Source: Agrocybe praecox (lineage: Eukaryota; Basidiomycota; Agaricomycetes; Agaricales; Agrocybaceae). Taken from it: a DNA stretch of 64,000 bases. Below the pieces are notes generated by a model that had not been told where the DNA came from, did no database searches, and saw only the letters and a program-made list of their open reading frames with translations. The position numbers and the translations under genes were made by a program. Shown here in pieces: positions 9,194-16,112 of the stretch (position 1 is its first letter; each line of letters opens with the position of its first letter). The stretch spans positions 4,154,001-4,218,000 of the forward strand of contig OZ024842.1 in the NCBI GenBank assembly GCA_964017145.1, given 5' to 3'.

Positions 9194-9201
9194 GACATTT
9201 C

Positions 9202-9255
9202 GAGAACATCGGATCGACTGGGAGGGAGCCTGGAGCCTGTAGCCTTGAGCCTCGG
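9202..9255 (+). repeat. Left terminal inverted repeat of the KDZ element
   Basis: It begins GAGAACATCGGATCGACTGG just after the direct repeat GACATTTC. It pairs with the reverse complement of 14897-14950, with roughly 80% of positions matching by eye over 54 bp. Confidence 0.85.
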
Positions 9256-9407
9256 CACAGCCCGGCAATCACCCACGTGCGCTTTCGTCCCGCACAGGAG
9301 TTGATCAGTGAAGTTCTTCGTCGTCGTCGTCGTCGTCGTCAGTGTTCCCTCCGTCGTCGGTGTACTCACTAGAGTGAGACTCCGAACTATACATTATACT
9401 GCACGTA

Positions 9408-11632
9408 ATGGGCCACCTTGATTTCAACCTGCCATCAGGCGAGCCGGTCAACTTCAAAACTCTGGCCAACTTCATGAAATACGGCCTGCTTGCAAAAGAA
9501 ACCATCAAGATGTCGGTTGGCGGTGATGGCCAACAGCCCCCCGACGAGCTACCATTTCGTATAAGTCTCCTGCTTTCCATCATTTTGAAGGAAGACCTTG
9601 GCATCATTGGGGAGTGCTGGAAAATGCTCCGGACTAACATATGGGATGATAGAGATGGAGTTTCACCCTCAGACGAGGAAATTAGGCTGTATAACAAGTA
9701 CGGCCTTCCTTTGGGCATATGTATGTCGTATTTTTCGTCTGTTAAAGAATATTCACCAATTTTGTAGCATACCGCCAGTTCTATCCTCCTACGCGTGTGT
9801 GCCAGGCGTTGTACTGTAAACATTTTGGAAAGGTCCTGAAGGAGCCGTTGACTCACAAAGCAACATTATTCACGCTTCGCAAGGGTGCCCTTCCTGTCTA
9901 TACAACCTCATTATATTGTAGAGGTGCGTTATTCCTTTCGGTTCCGACAAAAATTGACTGACGACTTTGCCAGGCTGTAAGAAAAGATATTATCACAACT
10001 ACACTGTTCACAAGCACAGTAGTCTCCGTGAATACTATGGTGGAGTCCCTGAGTATGTACAGGTTACTCAGCACTTCTTTATGGAAGCCGCGCTTTTGGA
10101 GTTTTTTGTGGTTTGCATGGTATTCGGATGGTATGTATGTCTACTTTCTTCAATTACATTCTTAGAAGGCTAACGACAATGATTCGCAACATAGGCTTTC
10201 AGCCTTAAACTTGGCACGCATCTATAACGAGTGTCTGGCATACGCCCATGCTCATATCTTGGGAAATAAATTAGCTTATCTTTCAACCTATCATCTTTAC
10301 GACGGACCACAGCTTGAATGGCAAACATCACTTGAGCTTCGTGATGAATACGTTATGAATGGCTTTTTCTTATATTCTCTACTGCTCGATACTGCGGAAC
10401 GTGGCATTATTCTTCAACTTCCGCACGATGAGCTGTCACAAAAAGACCGGTTGCAGCCTGCATTAGATCATCGTAACAAGCTGATGGAGGGTATTGGTCA
10501 AGAGCAGTACCTACATGCATGTGATCTATGCTTCCAAGTTTCTCATAATGAAGGTGGCGAGCTTGGTTTGTACTTTATCTTCCAAGGGTATTTTCTTTGT
10601 GCTTACTCTCGAACTAGTTAAAATACAGGCCACCGTTTGTGACGGCAAGACTATTGGACGGCCCTGCTGCACAGTTCATGACTGTCCAAACCCATTAATC
10701 AATAACCGACACCGTTTCTGTCAAGATCACTTCGAACGACACAACCTTTGTGCAGTAGTTGATTGTCAATGTGTATGCGAAGAAGGTTTTCGTACATGTC
10801 ATGATTCAGTGCATCGGGCACTCGAAAAGTCCTATTTCGAAAGGGGCAAGTCACTGTCTCAGCTTCGCAAGCTCTCGATAAAGGCACTCTCCACCCTTGA
10901 TGGTGAGAATGGAGAACGCGAGATCAGTGATATTGATGATGATGAAGATACCACTGAATGTAGCGGGAAATCAGACGCGGGAAATTTGAAGAAGAAGACC
11001 TATTTTGGCCGTCGAAGAACACATAACGAGCAGCTTATCATGAGACCATGTGGAGTTATTCTTTCACGAGCAACATTTTATGGGTCAGAATCTGTTTCGG
11101 CAGTGAATGTATGTCAATTTTTGTCTCTTATGATATTTTGAGGACCTCTATTGACAATTTAATTCTTCAGGCATTTGCAAGGGCAACCTTTCCTACGCCT
11201 CAGTCATCACCTGAGCTATGGATCTTTGATAACAACTGCCAGCTCGACAAATATCTTAGGAGCAACCCTCATGAGGCCGAACATTTCAAAGACACAGGTC
11301 GGCCTGTCGATGTCTTCCATTTTAAGTCAAAGCACAAAACTACCGACACTCACTGCCAACGCTATTGCAATCCAGCCTCATTCCCGGAGCTGATAAAAGA
11401 TGATAAATGGGCCATAAACATGAGTGTTTGTGAGCAAACTAATGGGTGGCTAGGTGGTTACCAAGCGATTGTTCGTGATATGGAGTGCACACGCTACAGC
11501 TTTTATCTCGATGAGATGATTAAGCGAAAAAACCGATATGTTGTGAAGCAGTCTGAGAAAAATGGTCATAACCCTTGGACAATTCCTTATGACTGTGTTT
11601 TCCCAGATGTTTCACAACCGGAGAACAAGTAA
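9408..11632 (+). CDS. KDZ-family transposase with two cysteine clusters
   Basis: Six exons (9408-9720, 9768-9923, 9974-10130, 10195-10565, 10618-11108, 11171-11632) join in phase to 649 residues. An N-terminal cluster (C116, C121, C155, C158, in the contexts RVCQALYC and LYCRGC) resembles the CxC5-type module found in KDZ proteins. A second cysteine-rich cluster (about residues 340-400, starting VCDGKTIGRPCC) resembles CxC6. Candidate catalytic acids of the RNase H-like fold are D341 (VCDGKTIG), D516 (WIFDNNC) and E584 (CEQTNGWLGGY). An acidic, serine-rich linker lies between the second cluster and the last exon. The ATG at 9408 is the first one in frame; an unseen upstream exon is possible. 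The gene lies inside inverted repeats and converges on the kinase gene, so it is the likely mobilising enzyme. Confidence 0.87.
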
Positions 11633-11734
11633 TTACTTATATTTTCATGATAGTGTTCTAAAATATATACTTCCCATAAATACTATTTGCTACGTTTGAC
11701 AACCTTTCGGCTAGTTGCAGGACAGTCCAGAACC

Positions 11735-14527
11735 TTAGAAAAGCTTAGGAAGACGCATTGAATTGCAAATGCGGTTGCAGATGTGCACGCCCTTGAAGTC
11801 TTCGATGCCGGTAAGCCCCTGGTCTCCGATGTATTTTTCCTGGTCTTCATTGGAAGAGTGAATTCGTGCGCTGAACAGGTTGAGGAGCCCATCTCTATCA
11901 ATATGGCCTGCAGGTGCGTCACGGTAAAGTTTATGAGCTTGATCAACACTTCTCTATGTACAAGTAGACTATACTCACCTTCAATATCAGTGATGATGAG
12001 CTGCTGGTCAAAATATTCGTACGAAAAATGAGAAAATGCGGCCAGAGCTTCTTCGAGTGAACCTTCTTCCACGAAAATCCCCTTTGTGGTAACAAGTGAT
12101 GATTGCGTGTCAAGTCTAGTTGACCAAGGCTGGCCCAAGGCTATCCAGCGAGTAGTCCTATCATTTCGGAAGGTCAAAACTTGGAATGTCTCCAGAAACG
12201 TAAACTCTAATTCAACGTATACATTAGCAGACGCAGTATCTCAAGTTATCATGACATTAATAACTTACTTGGGACATCAACGGGTACTTGCGCAGCAGCT
12301 CGATGAAATGCGAAGGCACAAAAGCCGCACCTAGCCAACCTTTCCGCCTCATGAATCGTCGCATCGATAAATTCAGCATACGTAGGATACTTGATGTTGA
12401 GGGTTTTCAAAGCAAAAAGCTTTTGTCCCTGCCCTGGCTTATTAATGAACATCTAACGTAATTCTCAGCAGATGGTAATAAATCTTATTAGATATATATA
12501 TTACATACCATGTATACACTCTTATGAGTGCCGGTGTATGAGGCTGTCTCGATGCATATGACATGGTGGATAGTTTTGTCCACATGAAGACCTAGTTCGC
12601 CATCGATATATTGATATTCGCCAAACTGAACCTCCCGTGCTGACCAAACCTCATCCTGATCAGAATCGGACTCCAAATCAACCCCCATCCTTGATCTTTT
12701 CTGAGTCACGTCAATATCAACTGAACGGTTAACGGTAGTAGGATCAGAAGACACCAGTTCAACCTCGTTTTCAGAGTCTGAACTGATCTCAATGATTTCT
12801 CCACCATTCCTTACTGCCACAGCATCATCGAGCGGCTCAAGTTTTACCACAACCTTTTTATCTACTTTTCCATGTGGCGGATTAACATCTGCAAAACTTT
12901 AAAGTATCGGTATTTATAAGAATATGTTACATTACTTACCATTTACCGCCTTTCGTAACTTGCTCCATTGGCCTTCATCTTTTCGCCCGAACGAGACAAA
13001 CTTGTCTAAGAGATTGACTTCTATTGCTCGCATATACAGATTTCGTGCCTTGTTGAAAGTGGACTTGACGTAGGTGCACTTAGGAAAGTGTCTGGAAAAT
13101 GCTTCCTTGACCGTCTGCTCGCCACTGAGGTTAACCATGTGGCAAAGGCCGGTGTGCATGTCCGAGGTGTATGTCAACGGGAAGGCAATAGAATTTATGG
13201 TTCGATGAAATGGTAAAACAGACTTAGCGGCGTCGGTAGCCATGGAAATTCCAGATGTTGTCTTCTCCCGTAGCACTGAGGATTGAACGGATTTGGAGCA
13301 AGAGGCGGTCGGGATAGGGACATCCTGTCGTAAAACCTGTGACACAGTATTGCTGGTACTGCCATCATTCGAGGGCGCAGAAAAAAGATTGATGCCCAAG
13401 GCAAGGTCTTTCTCGTGTTCGAGACGAAGACAGTCAGATTCCTTGATATTTCCCACACGGACAAGGATGGTACCACCAGGCGTGATCTTGAGAGGGTGAT
13501 CTAGTTCTTGAGCTACCCAACGTGTCACTGGCTCAGTGTGAAGCACACTGATGTGTGAATGGCCTTGAAGATAGTCGACAAGCATTGATGAGCTGCTAGG
13601 AACAAAATATCCACCATCAGACGTGATAACATTGAAGGACTGAGGTTCAATGTTTGGCTGGGTAATTAATATCACGATTTGAACATGAGTGATATGTAAG
13701 TTGGTTGACAGCGTACCTTTGCCCATAAGACAACCTGCAATCTCTTTTTATAATTGCTCTCCATACACTGCCTTCGATGTAACTCTTCATTTCGTTCTTG
13801 GACGCGGCGCTGAGCTTGTGTATATGCATTTGCATAGTTCCCGATAGCTCGTCCATAGTGTGTTCGTGGCTTCTCGGTCCCACTATTGACATCAGAACGA
13901 GTCGCTTGACCCTAAGGTGAAAAACGGATTGGTAAGTAACATTATCCTGAAAGACATACCATCTCATACTTACCATTGAAGACTCGGGTAAGTCTGGAGA
14001 ATTATCACGCTCGTCTTGAGGCCATTGCGAGGAACCAGGTCCCATAACGTGAAACTTACAGCCTCCTCGAGACTTACAGTATTGAGCACACAGAGGGTTT
14101 GGTGCATGTTGGCAGAGTATGTTTGCCCTTCGAGGCTGTCCACTCCCATTGCGACAGTCTGAGTTACTGCAGGACACACCCGCTTTCTTGCCCTTCTCGG
14201 GCGTGGTTTTCATGCTTTGGCGTGAAGCAAGATATGCCTGTACCTCCTCGGGAATCATGCGAAGTGGTGTTGGCTCGCTTTCATACCAGTGAAAGTGGGC
14301 ACAGTACTTGCACTAATTCGAAACACAAGGTTAGTATTTGAGATGTTCGTAAAGCTATATTAAAGGCTGGAACTCACACGATGAAAATGATGGCCATAAT
14401 TTCCAAGAATAGGGCTTTCCGTGCACAGTGAAGGCTTCCCATCTATCGCCCTATGGCACTTTGGACAAAACCGAATCAACACCTGAGGGAAAGCATTGAA
14501 TGTGGGCTTCGAAAAGAGGTTAGGCAT
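11735..14527 (-). CDS. Zinc-cluster protein with C-terminal alpha-kinase domain
   Basis: Eight exons (14527-14378, 14312-13974, 13911-13717, 13657-12940, 12888-12509, 12452-12269, 12206-11979, 11907-11735) join in phase to 788 residues. At the N-terminus, C21-x2-C24 ... NYGHHFHRC51-x2-C54-AHFHW resembles a GRF-type zinc finger. A second Cys/His cluster spans about 98-137, followed by a Q/R/E-rich helix and an acidic SDSEN stretch. The C-terminal third carries alpha-kinase hallmarks: a candidate lysine at 610 (KLFALKTL), AFSHFSYEYF (H715), a metal-binding D729 in ITDIEG, GDQGLTGIEDF, and H773-x-C775-x3-C779, which matches the zinc site of alpha-kinases. A serine/threonine kinase activity is expected; substrates are unknown. 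It lies wholly within the KDZ inverted repeats. Confidence 0.88.
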
Positions 14528-14896
14528 TTTCAAGTGGACTTGAGGAGTTGCAAGAAGAAAGAAACTGTCGCCAGCAAAGGAGAAATAGGAAGTGACGGAT
14601 AAAGGATGTTGAAAAAAAATTCATTCTGGTGCGGAAGGGAATATACATGATCATTAGTACGAAAAGAGCTGCCTCGAGTGACTACAAGTTCAAATTATGC
14701 GATATTAGGACACTACTGTCTGATAAATCATTAGCAGGTAGAAAATTAACATCCTACACAAGTAGACTTACATATTTTACAGGTATAGGCGTTGATAGAG
14801 AAGATGAAGGGATGAAGAAAGAATGCGAGCGGCCACATCATCGACGTCAGACATGCCGACAAAGTGCCGGAGCGTCACATGCTGTGACGGGAAAAA

Positions 14897-14950
14897 CCGA
14901 GGCTCTTGACTACGGGCTCCAGGCTCTGTCCCAGCCGATCCGAACTTCTG
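14897..14950 (-). repeat. Right terminal inverted repeat of the KDZ element
   Basis: The reverse complement begins CAGAAGTTCGGATCGGCTGG and matches the left end. It is followed by the second copy of GACATTTC at 14951-14958. Confidence 0.85.
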
Positions 14951-14958
14951 GACATTTC

Positions 14959-15433: not shown

Positions 15434-15441
15434 ATTTCCCA

Positions 15442-16084
15442 TAGTGTTGTGCTAAATAGGCTGACCTAATTAGCACGTGCTAATTAGCCCACCCGTCGGT
15501 GAGCCCAGAAATCTGGCTGCTAAATAGGGCTAATTAGCTCTTTTTCTTCGCGCTTGAGAGACCCTGTAATTTCTCTGAACTATATCTCAGACTGTCCAGG
15601 AGTGTCCAAGATGGACAAATTTTAATACAAAATAATTAGAAAAAGTAGTATACTAAGTACAGTTACTCGATTCTCGAAGTACTAATACGAAATATTATTC
15701 CAAATTCAAGTTTGTAATGTGAGGACCGCCAGGCTTCAGCGCATGTATGTACTATGGCCAGAAGGATTTTGACCTGGCTTTACAGTAACATCCAACTTTA
15801 TGCCGCGGATGCCGCTGCATTTACTTTATTGCCTCAGAAAAATAAGCGGGAGACATGGTAGTGGGAATAGAAGTTGAAGGTTCAGAGTCGCCGAAGGCCC
15901 CAGCTCTAGTAGACCCTATTTCACTCAGCTAATTAGCAAATTTTATTTATTTATTCGGCTAATTAGCGCCAAATAGCGGCACAGCTAATTAGCGCTATTT
16001 AACATATGTTAATTTGACCCTCCGACGGGCTTGCGCTAATTAGCCGGGGCTAATTAGGACTCCGACCTATTTAGCACAACACTA
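15442..16084. mobile_element. hAT-type non-autonomous element, CTAATTAGC word type, 643 bp
   Basis: The terminal inverted repeat TAGTGTTGTGCTAAATAGG is perfect over 19 bp at both ends. An 8-bp direct repeat, ATTTCCCA, flanks it (15434-15441 and 16085-16092). The TAGTGTTG ends and 8-bp duplication are hallmarks of the hAT superfamily. The interior is packed near both ends with the near-palindromic word GCTAATTAGC and variants, and the middle (15,600-15,900) is unrelated filler. There is no coding capacity. Confidence 0.9.
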
Positions 16085-16112
16085 ATTTCCCACATTTCTT
16101 TCACCAGGTTAA

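Follow-up and report, generated by a model that had tools for sequence, protein, structure and literature searches.

The window, a 64,000-nucleotide stretch of the Agrocybe praecox genome (C3:4154001-4218000; the genome searched was the 59.2-Mb assembly of 347 contigs), harbors a complete cut-and-paste DNA transposon with a second gene for an alpha-kinase. The element occupies window positions 9202-14950 (5749 bp) and lies between two exact copies of the target site duplication (TSD) GACATTTC, the left one at 9194-9201 and the right one at 14951-14958. Its left terminal inverted repeat (9202-9255, plus strand) starts with GAGAACATCGGATCGACTGGGAGG and is identical at 44 of 54 positions to the complement of the right repeat (14897-14950, minus strand), which reads CAGAAGTTCGGATCGGCTGGGACA from the right end. 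Random pairs of 54-mers from the region (n = 200) reached 13.5 matches on average and 21 at most, and the TSD is exact, so that the 54-bp inverted ends and 8-bp duplication described in an earlier, sequence-only reading of this DNA are borne out. An exact 8-bp TSD combined with an inverted match of at least 17 of 24 bases turned up 0.003 times per sequence on average when 7 kb were resampled 300 times with a first-order Markov model. A separate 643-bp element with inverted ends TAGTGTTGTGCTAAATAGG is located at 15442-16084, flanked by exact 8-bp TSDs ATTTCCCA at 15434-15441 and 16085-16092; we take it to resemble short non-autonomous elements of the hAT type.

Two convergent spliced genes, about 100 bp apart, are enclosed by the ends. 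The plus strand encodes a transposase of 649 residues at 9408-11632, in six exons (9408-9720, 9768-9923, 9974-10130, 10195-10565, 10618-11108, 11171-11632). On the minus strand, at 11735-14527, a zinc-cluster/alpha-kinase protein of 788 residues is encoded in eight exons (14527-14378, 14312-13974, 13911-13717, 13657-12940, 12888-12509, 12452-12269, 12206-11979, 11907-11735). The two models contain 12 introns, 47-71 bp long and without exception of the GT..AG type. The models were obtained from a splice search; the 788-residue kinase model is the top-scoring one with intron zones chosen by eye, tighter zones returned no model, and the spliced aligner penalizes stops and may have spliced around some.

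The transposase contains the cysteine clusters CxC5 (residues 105-223, E 1.8e-36) and CxC6 (residues 339-403, E 2.7e-22), both of which Pfam names as KDZ-associated and both of which occur in all five transposases of the complete elements described below. A protein search retrieved 254 public relatives at E ≤ 0.001; among the best 120 of these, the closest belong to Gymnopilus, Hebeloma, Mycena and Agrocybe. Catalytic residues were sought in an alignment of 118 rows, consisting of our five transposases and 113 public proteins; the seven of the best 120 that fell below 500 residues were omitted. Counting rows with a residue at the position, the candidate first catalytic Asp, D341 in VCDG (codon 10641-10643, plus strand), is present in 113 of 113, the candidate second Asp, D516 in FDNNC (11228-11230, plus strand), in 117 of 117, and the candidate catalytic Glu, E584 in CEQTN (11432-11434, plus strand), in 114 of 115; the codon coordinates were derived by hand from the exon list. 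His546 and His551 are each found in 117 of 117 such rows. As judged from this alignment, the nearly invariant D341/D516/E584 set is what one expects of a DDE nuclease, which suggests that the transposase of the element is the CxC5/CxC6 protein. The copy in the window is probably still able to provide it.

The relation of this protein to KDZ transposases is less direct. None of the five transposases matches the KDZ transposase domain PF18758 at E ≤ 1, and a PDB search with the transposase profile gave no match at E ≤ 1. Comparison of the profile with three KDZ-domain proteins of the same genome by hhalign aligned the middle part weakly (E 0.069, probability 0.8%). By eye, the order FDNNCQL..VFHF..H..CEQTN is like the YDIGCQL..VFHAYGH..GCERFW of these KDZ proteins. 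The earlier label "KDZ-type" is thus supported by the KDZ-associated clusters and not by PF18758 or the profile comparison, and because of the latter two we call the transposase KDZ-associated and withhold formal KDZ membership. A CxC5 protein from a more distant lineage of the genome (L030) is clearly related to it (E 6e-20).

The alpha-kinase domain spans residues 587-779 of the partner protein (PF02816, E 5.7e-16; 11765-12532 on the minus strand, introns included, placed by hand) and covers profile positions 3-185 of 185. The N-terminal half has no Pfam match and contains eight cysteines (51, 54, 98, 103, 117, 125, 129 and 135 in window numbering) that are invariant across the kinases of the five elements. 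A four-row kinase profile matches Dictyostelium MHCK-A with E 5.6e-15. The window kinase keeps the FALKTL Lys (located by eye), the DIEG Asp as the first of the two, and the H..C..C at the C-terminal end, and has a Ser aligned to the Asp of MHCK-A TDPQIHT. From its spacing, this Asp is presumed to be Asp766, which is reported to be invariant and catalytically essential (PMC4876393); the columns for Asp766 and the catalytic Lys are our own placement. Both the family alignment and the MHCK-A profile alignment put Ser at this position, and a gap-free match to the kinase of an IS3EU-like element on contig C10, DRDGVMCLIDPQAHT against DRDGLLNLFSARIHS, agrees, whereas in an ungapped single-sequence alignment to TRPM7 the second Asp falls elsewhere. 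Since Ser stands at the presumed essential Asp766, the window kinase is probably catalytically impaired. The sequence-only reading had spoken of two intact genes; both frames are indeed open, and the kinase nevertheless seems to be without one catalytic Asp.

Other copies are better preserved. The kinases of the elements on contigs C4 and C12 retain the presumed ATP-binding Lys, both Asp and the zinc ligands, and that on C8 has an in-frame TGA and an Asn in place of the first Asp, so that two of the four kinase domains read to their end (C4 and C12) look catalytically complete by residues. Judged by these residues, kinase activity would be poorly modeled by the window copy and better by C4 and C12. 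Searches of public proteins with the window kinase and with the five-row kinase alignment found no homologue, which is weak evidence of absence because, by our calculation, the 100 five-residue words used would rarely match at 25-35% identity.

In total, five complete elements of 5.7-6.9 kb carry the transposase and the kinase between similar ends, each within its own exact 8-bp TSD: the window element on C3 (9202-14950 of the window; GACATTTC) and those at C4:225.6-231.3 kb (GCTTATTT), C8:2522.1-2528.6 kb (AGAAATCC), C12:335.5-342.0 kb (CACGATAT) and C7:1510.1-1517.0 kb (GCATTTAT). A sixth copy with stops, at C4:3.08 Mb (C4:3080571-3086627), is decayed; its kinase is split over about 6 kb, and its terminal ends were not found within the 6 kb examined. 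The gene layout is convergent in all six pairs, the decayed copy included. The termini share an asymmetry common to the family, with GAG....GGG on the transposase side in five of five complete elements and CAGAA....GGG on the kinase side in four of five, C8 having CAAGA. These five complete elements with separate TSDs, together with the decayed one, uphold the earlier proposal that the kinase is a standing partner of the transposase. Within the genome analyzed, the kinase is a kept part of the element and not a passenger caught once.

The CxC5 model matched 22 places in the genome, which merged into 17 loci. A kinase is present at all six full-length or nearly full-length transposase loci of the window lineage. 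Nine further CxC5 loci belong to a distant lineage, 25-33% identical to the window transposase, and no alpha-kinase match lies within 30 kb of any of them, or as far as its contig reaches; the nearest alpha-kinase to any of them is about 37 kb away. These misses are no proof, because the model search also missed the C7 kinase, which could be read in part and is absent from the 12 places matched by the alpha-kinase model. The CxC5 loci on C339 and C310 are truncated pieces of the window lineage. Beside the transposase fragments on C339, at C310:10.7-11.7 kb and at C2:281.6 kb no kinase match was found, the kinase-side flank of C339 lying outside the range. Further end fragments of the family occur at C8:2547819-2547877 (59 bp that match the left end at 98% identity) and at C9:3440310-3440360, in a locus that contains 200 N.

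Short loci with the ends of the window element offer a view of its mobility. All seven examined are non-autonomous copies of 638-803 bp, and each lies between exact 8-bp TSDs of its own. What they retain of the element is about 330 bp from its left side and portions of its rightmost 500 bp, so that of each gene just the opening few dozen codons are left. The first 24 bases at the left end of the window element recur unchanged in all seven, and 23 of its 24 right-end bases agree with them. Identity is 99.2-99.6% among three of the copies and at least 94% among six; the seventh and most divergent shares 71-74% with the rest. These gene-less derivatives show mobility, some of it recent. Because copies without genes move, the ends act in cis and the proteins in trans, and the kinase is dispensable in cis.

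Compared with the C12 element (C12:335.5-342 kb), its closest relative, the decayed C4 copy carries 116 substitutions in 2.2 kb of the transposase gene, 88 of which are C>T or G>A and 53 of which are at CpG; the CpG count falls from 75 to 24 if C12 is assumed to represent the older state. These substitutions are as expected from methylation-linked decay.

The two proteins differ in their rate of divergence. Between elements, identity is 48.5-60.7% for the transposase and 20.8-42.9% for the kinase (C7 compared in part), and the kinase is the less alike of the two in all ten element pairs. This faster divergence is also compatible with relaxed constraint. Within the genome analyzed, the kinase is shown to be a fast-evolving, kept gene of the element. 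C8 and C7 are the closest pair by both proteins, and C4 is closest to the window element by both. In Mantel comparisons of the kinase and transposase distances, the Spearman coefficient is 0.76 (8 of 120 permutations as high) and the Pearson coefficient 0.80 (2 of 120). The sequence-only reading had proposed checking whether the two trees match; the distances agree in part, and for five elements the co-divergence is suggestive only.

A quick transposase tree hints at the age of the partnership. It comprises 76 rows, our five transposases and 71 from the best 120 of the 254 public relatives. The window transposase pairs with one of Gymnopilus dilepis, and our transposases are interspersed with transposases from other agaric genera. 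They need at least four label changes, all four forced by well-supported branches; shuffled labels gave a mean of 4.9 changes, with 44 of 500 shuffles as low as four. Because of this scattering, the transposase-kinase partnership is probably old, and if the kinase was gained once, it is predicted to be older than these agaric genera.

Alpha-kinase genes of this genome are found mostly in mobile DNA. The Pfam model marks 12 loci: five belong to window-family elements or the decayed copy, another five to IS3EU-like elements, and two (L069 and L071, on C195 and C13) to shared repeats for which clear element bounds were not found. That places ten of the 12 in transposons or a remnant of one, and none of the 12 could be identified as a host gene. 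Since most loci found lie inside transposons, the apparent host alpha-kinase family of this genome is largely a set of transposon genes, which fits the earlier idea that transposons stand behind its expansion. Five of the seven kinase loci without CxC5 (L070, L072, L073, L074 and L075) have exact 6-bp TSDs and inverted repeats of 31-44 bp, which resembles IS3EU, described with a 6-bp TSD and repeats of more than 30 bp (PMC12730594). The IS3EU termini TAYGG..CCRTA are present in two of them (L070 and L075), and the other three start with TACCG. Integrase-like frames were seen by eye in L072, L074 and L075, on the kinase strand, and five of five candidate pieces from these three loci have no Pfam match. 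L073 (3047-6445) is more than 99.5% identical to L072 (2177-6416) where the two align, has a different TSD, and is without the 1.2 kb that holds the integrase-like frame in L072; this kinase-bearing copy may have moved without that frame.

These observations can be best explained by a two-gene cut-and-paste transposon of a KDZ-associated lineage, which has a CxC5/CxC6 transposase and keeps the kinase as a probable accessory factor acting in trans, a reading in which we have good confidence. The zinc-rich transposase would bind the inverted ends, excise the element and reinsert it with an 8-bp staggered cut; we infer this DDE cut-and-paste chemistry with high confidence because the D..D..E set is nearly invariant. 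The kinase would act in trans and help the element to stay expressed or mobile, possibly by phosphorylating chromatin or silencing proteins of the host, or the transposase. That the arrangement arose from two insertions with no relation to each other, or from a host kinase that happened to fall between transposon ends, has a negligible probability; in this genome it is refuted, as the pair recurs in five complete elements with ends that match and TSDs of their own. The independence of these five complete elements also rules out host-gene capture and nested insertion.

Three other accounts concern what the kinase does. An ancestral element might have picked it up a single time and carried it along as neutral cargo that is now decaying, as would agree with the catalytic residues lost from the window and C8 kinases, the stop in C8, the lower kinase similarity in every element pair and the movement of short copies without it. 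We regard this as unlikely, since the zinc cluster and kinase domain are still readable although the transposases are just 48-61% alike, an age at which loss or many stops would be expected; moreover, C4 and C12 keep the presumed ATP-binding Lys and both Asp, and the same kind of kinase occurs in IS3EU-like elements. In a second account, the kinase is a trans-acting anti-silencing or host-signaling factor comparable to the TET/JBP genes of fungal transposons; its recurrence in IS3EU-like elements speaks for this, and in the accessible text on rust IS3EU elements the alpha-kinase genes adjoin the transposase and TET/JBP (PMC12730594). The decayed kinase-bearing copy is in line with this, as its mostly C>T/G>A substitutions, 53 of 116 at CpG, make silencing by DNA methylation plausible in the host. 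The link to silencing is drawn by analogy, however, and we consider this role possible rather than probable. Direct regulation of the transposase, for example by phosphorylation or by zinc-cluster tethering to the ends, would account for the fixed pairing and convergent layout in six of six pairs, the partial co-divergence and the Cys clusters in both proteins. It is nonetheless quite improbable: no kinase was found near any of the nine loci of the distant CxC5 lineage, and such a role would be unexpected beside the unrelated IS3EU-like transposases. On present evidence, a kept accessory factor acting in trans describes the kinase best.

A protein kinase kept inside a cut-and-paste transposon is unusual, and it would represent a new way for a transposon to act on its host or on its own transposase. 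More broadly and with considerable reserve, we propose that basidiomycete alpha-kinases may be mainly transposon-borne, a recurrent accessory resembling TET/JBP in at least two unrelated superfamilies that acts against silencing or on transposition. This would offer an explanation for the alpha-kinase expansions of basidiomycetes. The family is reported to be highly expanded in rusts and absent from Microbotryomycetes (PMC4469406); if the proposal is true, the kinases of the rust expansion, and of the one suspected in mushrooms, would belong to transposons, and the CxC5/CxC6 proteins, to date labeled just as KDZ-associated and suggested here to be transposases, would form a transposase lineage of their own.

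The individual parts of the element can be set against known systems. Compared with the alpha-kinases MHCK-A, TRPM7, ALPK1 and eEF2K, the window kinase has a C-terminal domain that aligns by profile (with MHCK-A) and the H..C..C, and differs in being transposon-borne, in its N-terminal zinc-cluster half and in the Ser at the presumed Asp766. Among KDZ (Kyakuja-Dileera-Zisupton) elements, Zisupton is described with an 8-bp TSD and terminal inverted repeats, and Kyakuja with 7 bp and no inverted repeats (PMC12730594). Our element is most like Zisupton in its 8-bp TSD and inverted ends, and resembles the KDZ group in its KDZ-associated clusters and, by eye, in the order of its D/H/E motifs; it differs in the missing PF18758 match, the weak profile alignment and a partner that is a kinase and not TET/JBP.

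A further parallel comes from sporeless Pleurotus ostreatus, in which a 6,792-bp multicopy insert with a CxC5/CxC6 frame disrupts poMSH4 (PMC7641404). Its authors tied the insert to Copia because no KDZ-type transposon lay nearby (PMC7641404). The insert shares with our element its multicopy nature, a length of about 7 kb and a CxC5/CxC6 protein; it differs in that the accessible part of that report describes the CxC5/CxC6 frame and repeats and mentions no kinase. A P. ostreatus protein of 658 residues (P0029) and the window transposase share 47% identity over 98%, and the frame beside poMSH4 has 660 residues (PMC7641404), so that this protein and that frame may belong to one gene family. A role of CxC5/CxC6 proteins as transposases would reinterpret the insertion behind this commercial sporeless oyster mushroom.

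In the open-licence literature searched, a scope that leaves most subscription journals outside, we found no mention of kinase carriage by KDZ or CxC5/CxC6 elements, and only one report, as far as its accessible text goes, links alpha-kinase genes to transposons (PMC12730594). That report (Kojima 2025, PMC12730594) concerns IS3EU elements in rust fungi that carry TET/JBP and alpha-kinase genes, so the sequence-only view that a partnership of kinase and transposase was undescribed does not hold; according to it, kinase carriage was known before in one superfamily, IS3EU. In all TET-positive IS3EU families, TET/JBP sits between the transposase and alpha-kinase genes (PMC12730594). The rust transposase is opposite in orientation to the kinase, whereas the integrase-like frames of L072, L074 and L075 share the strand of theirs. 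The window element resembles the rust elements in having an alpha-kinase as accessory gene, oriented opposite to the transposase in both. The rust elements differ in their transposase superfamily, their 6-bp TSD and the TET/JBP gene between the two others, in contrast to the CxC5/CxC6 transposase, the 8-bp TSD and the mere 100 bp or so between the genes of the window element.
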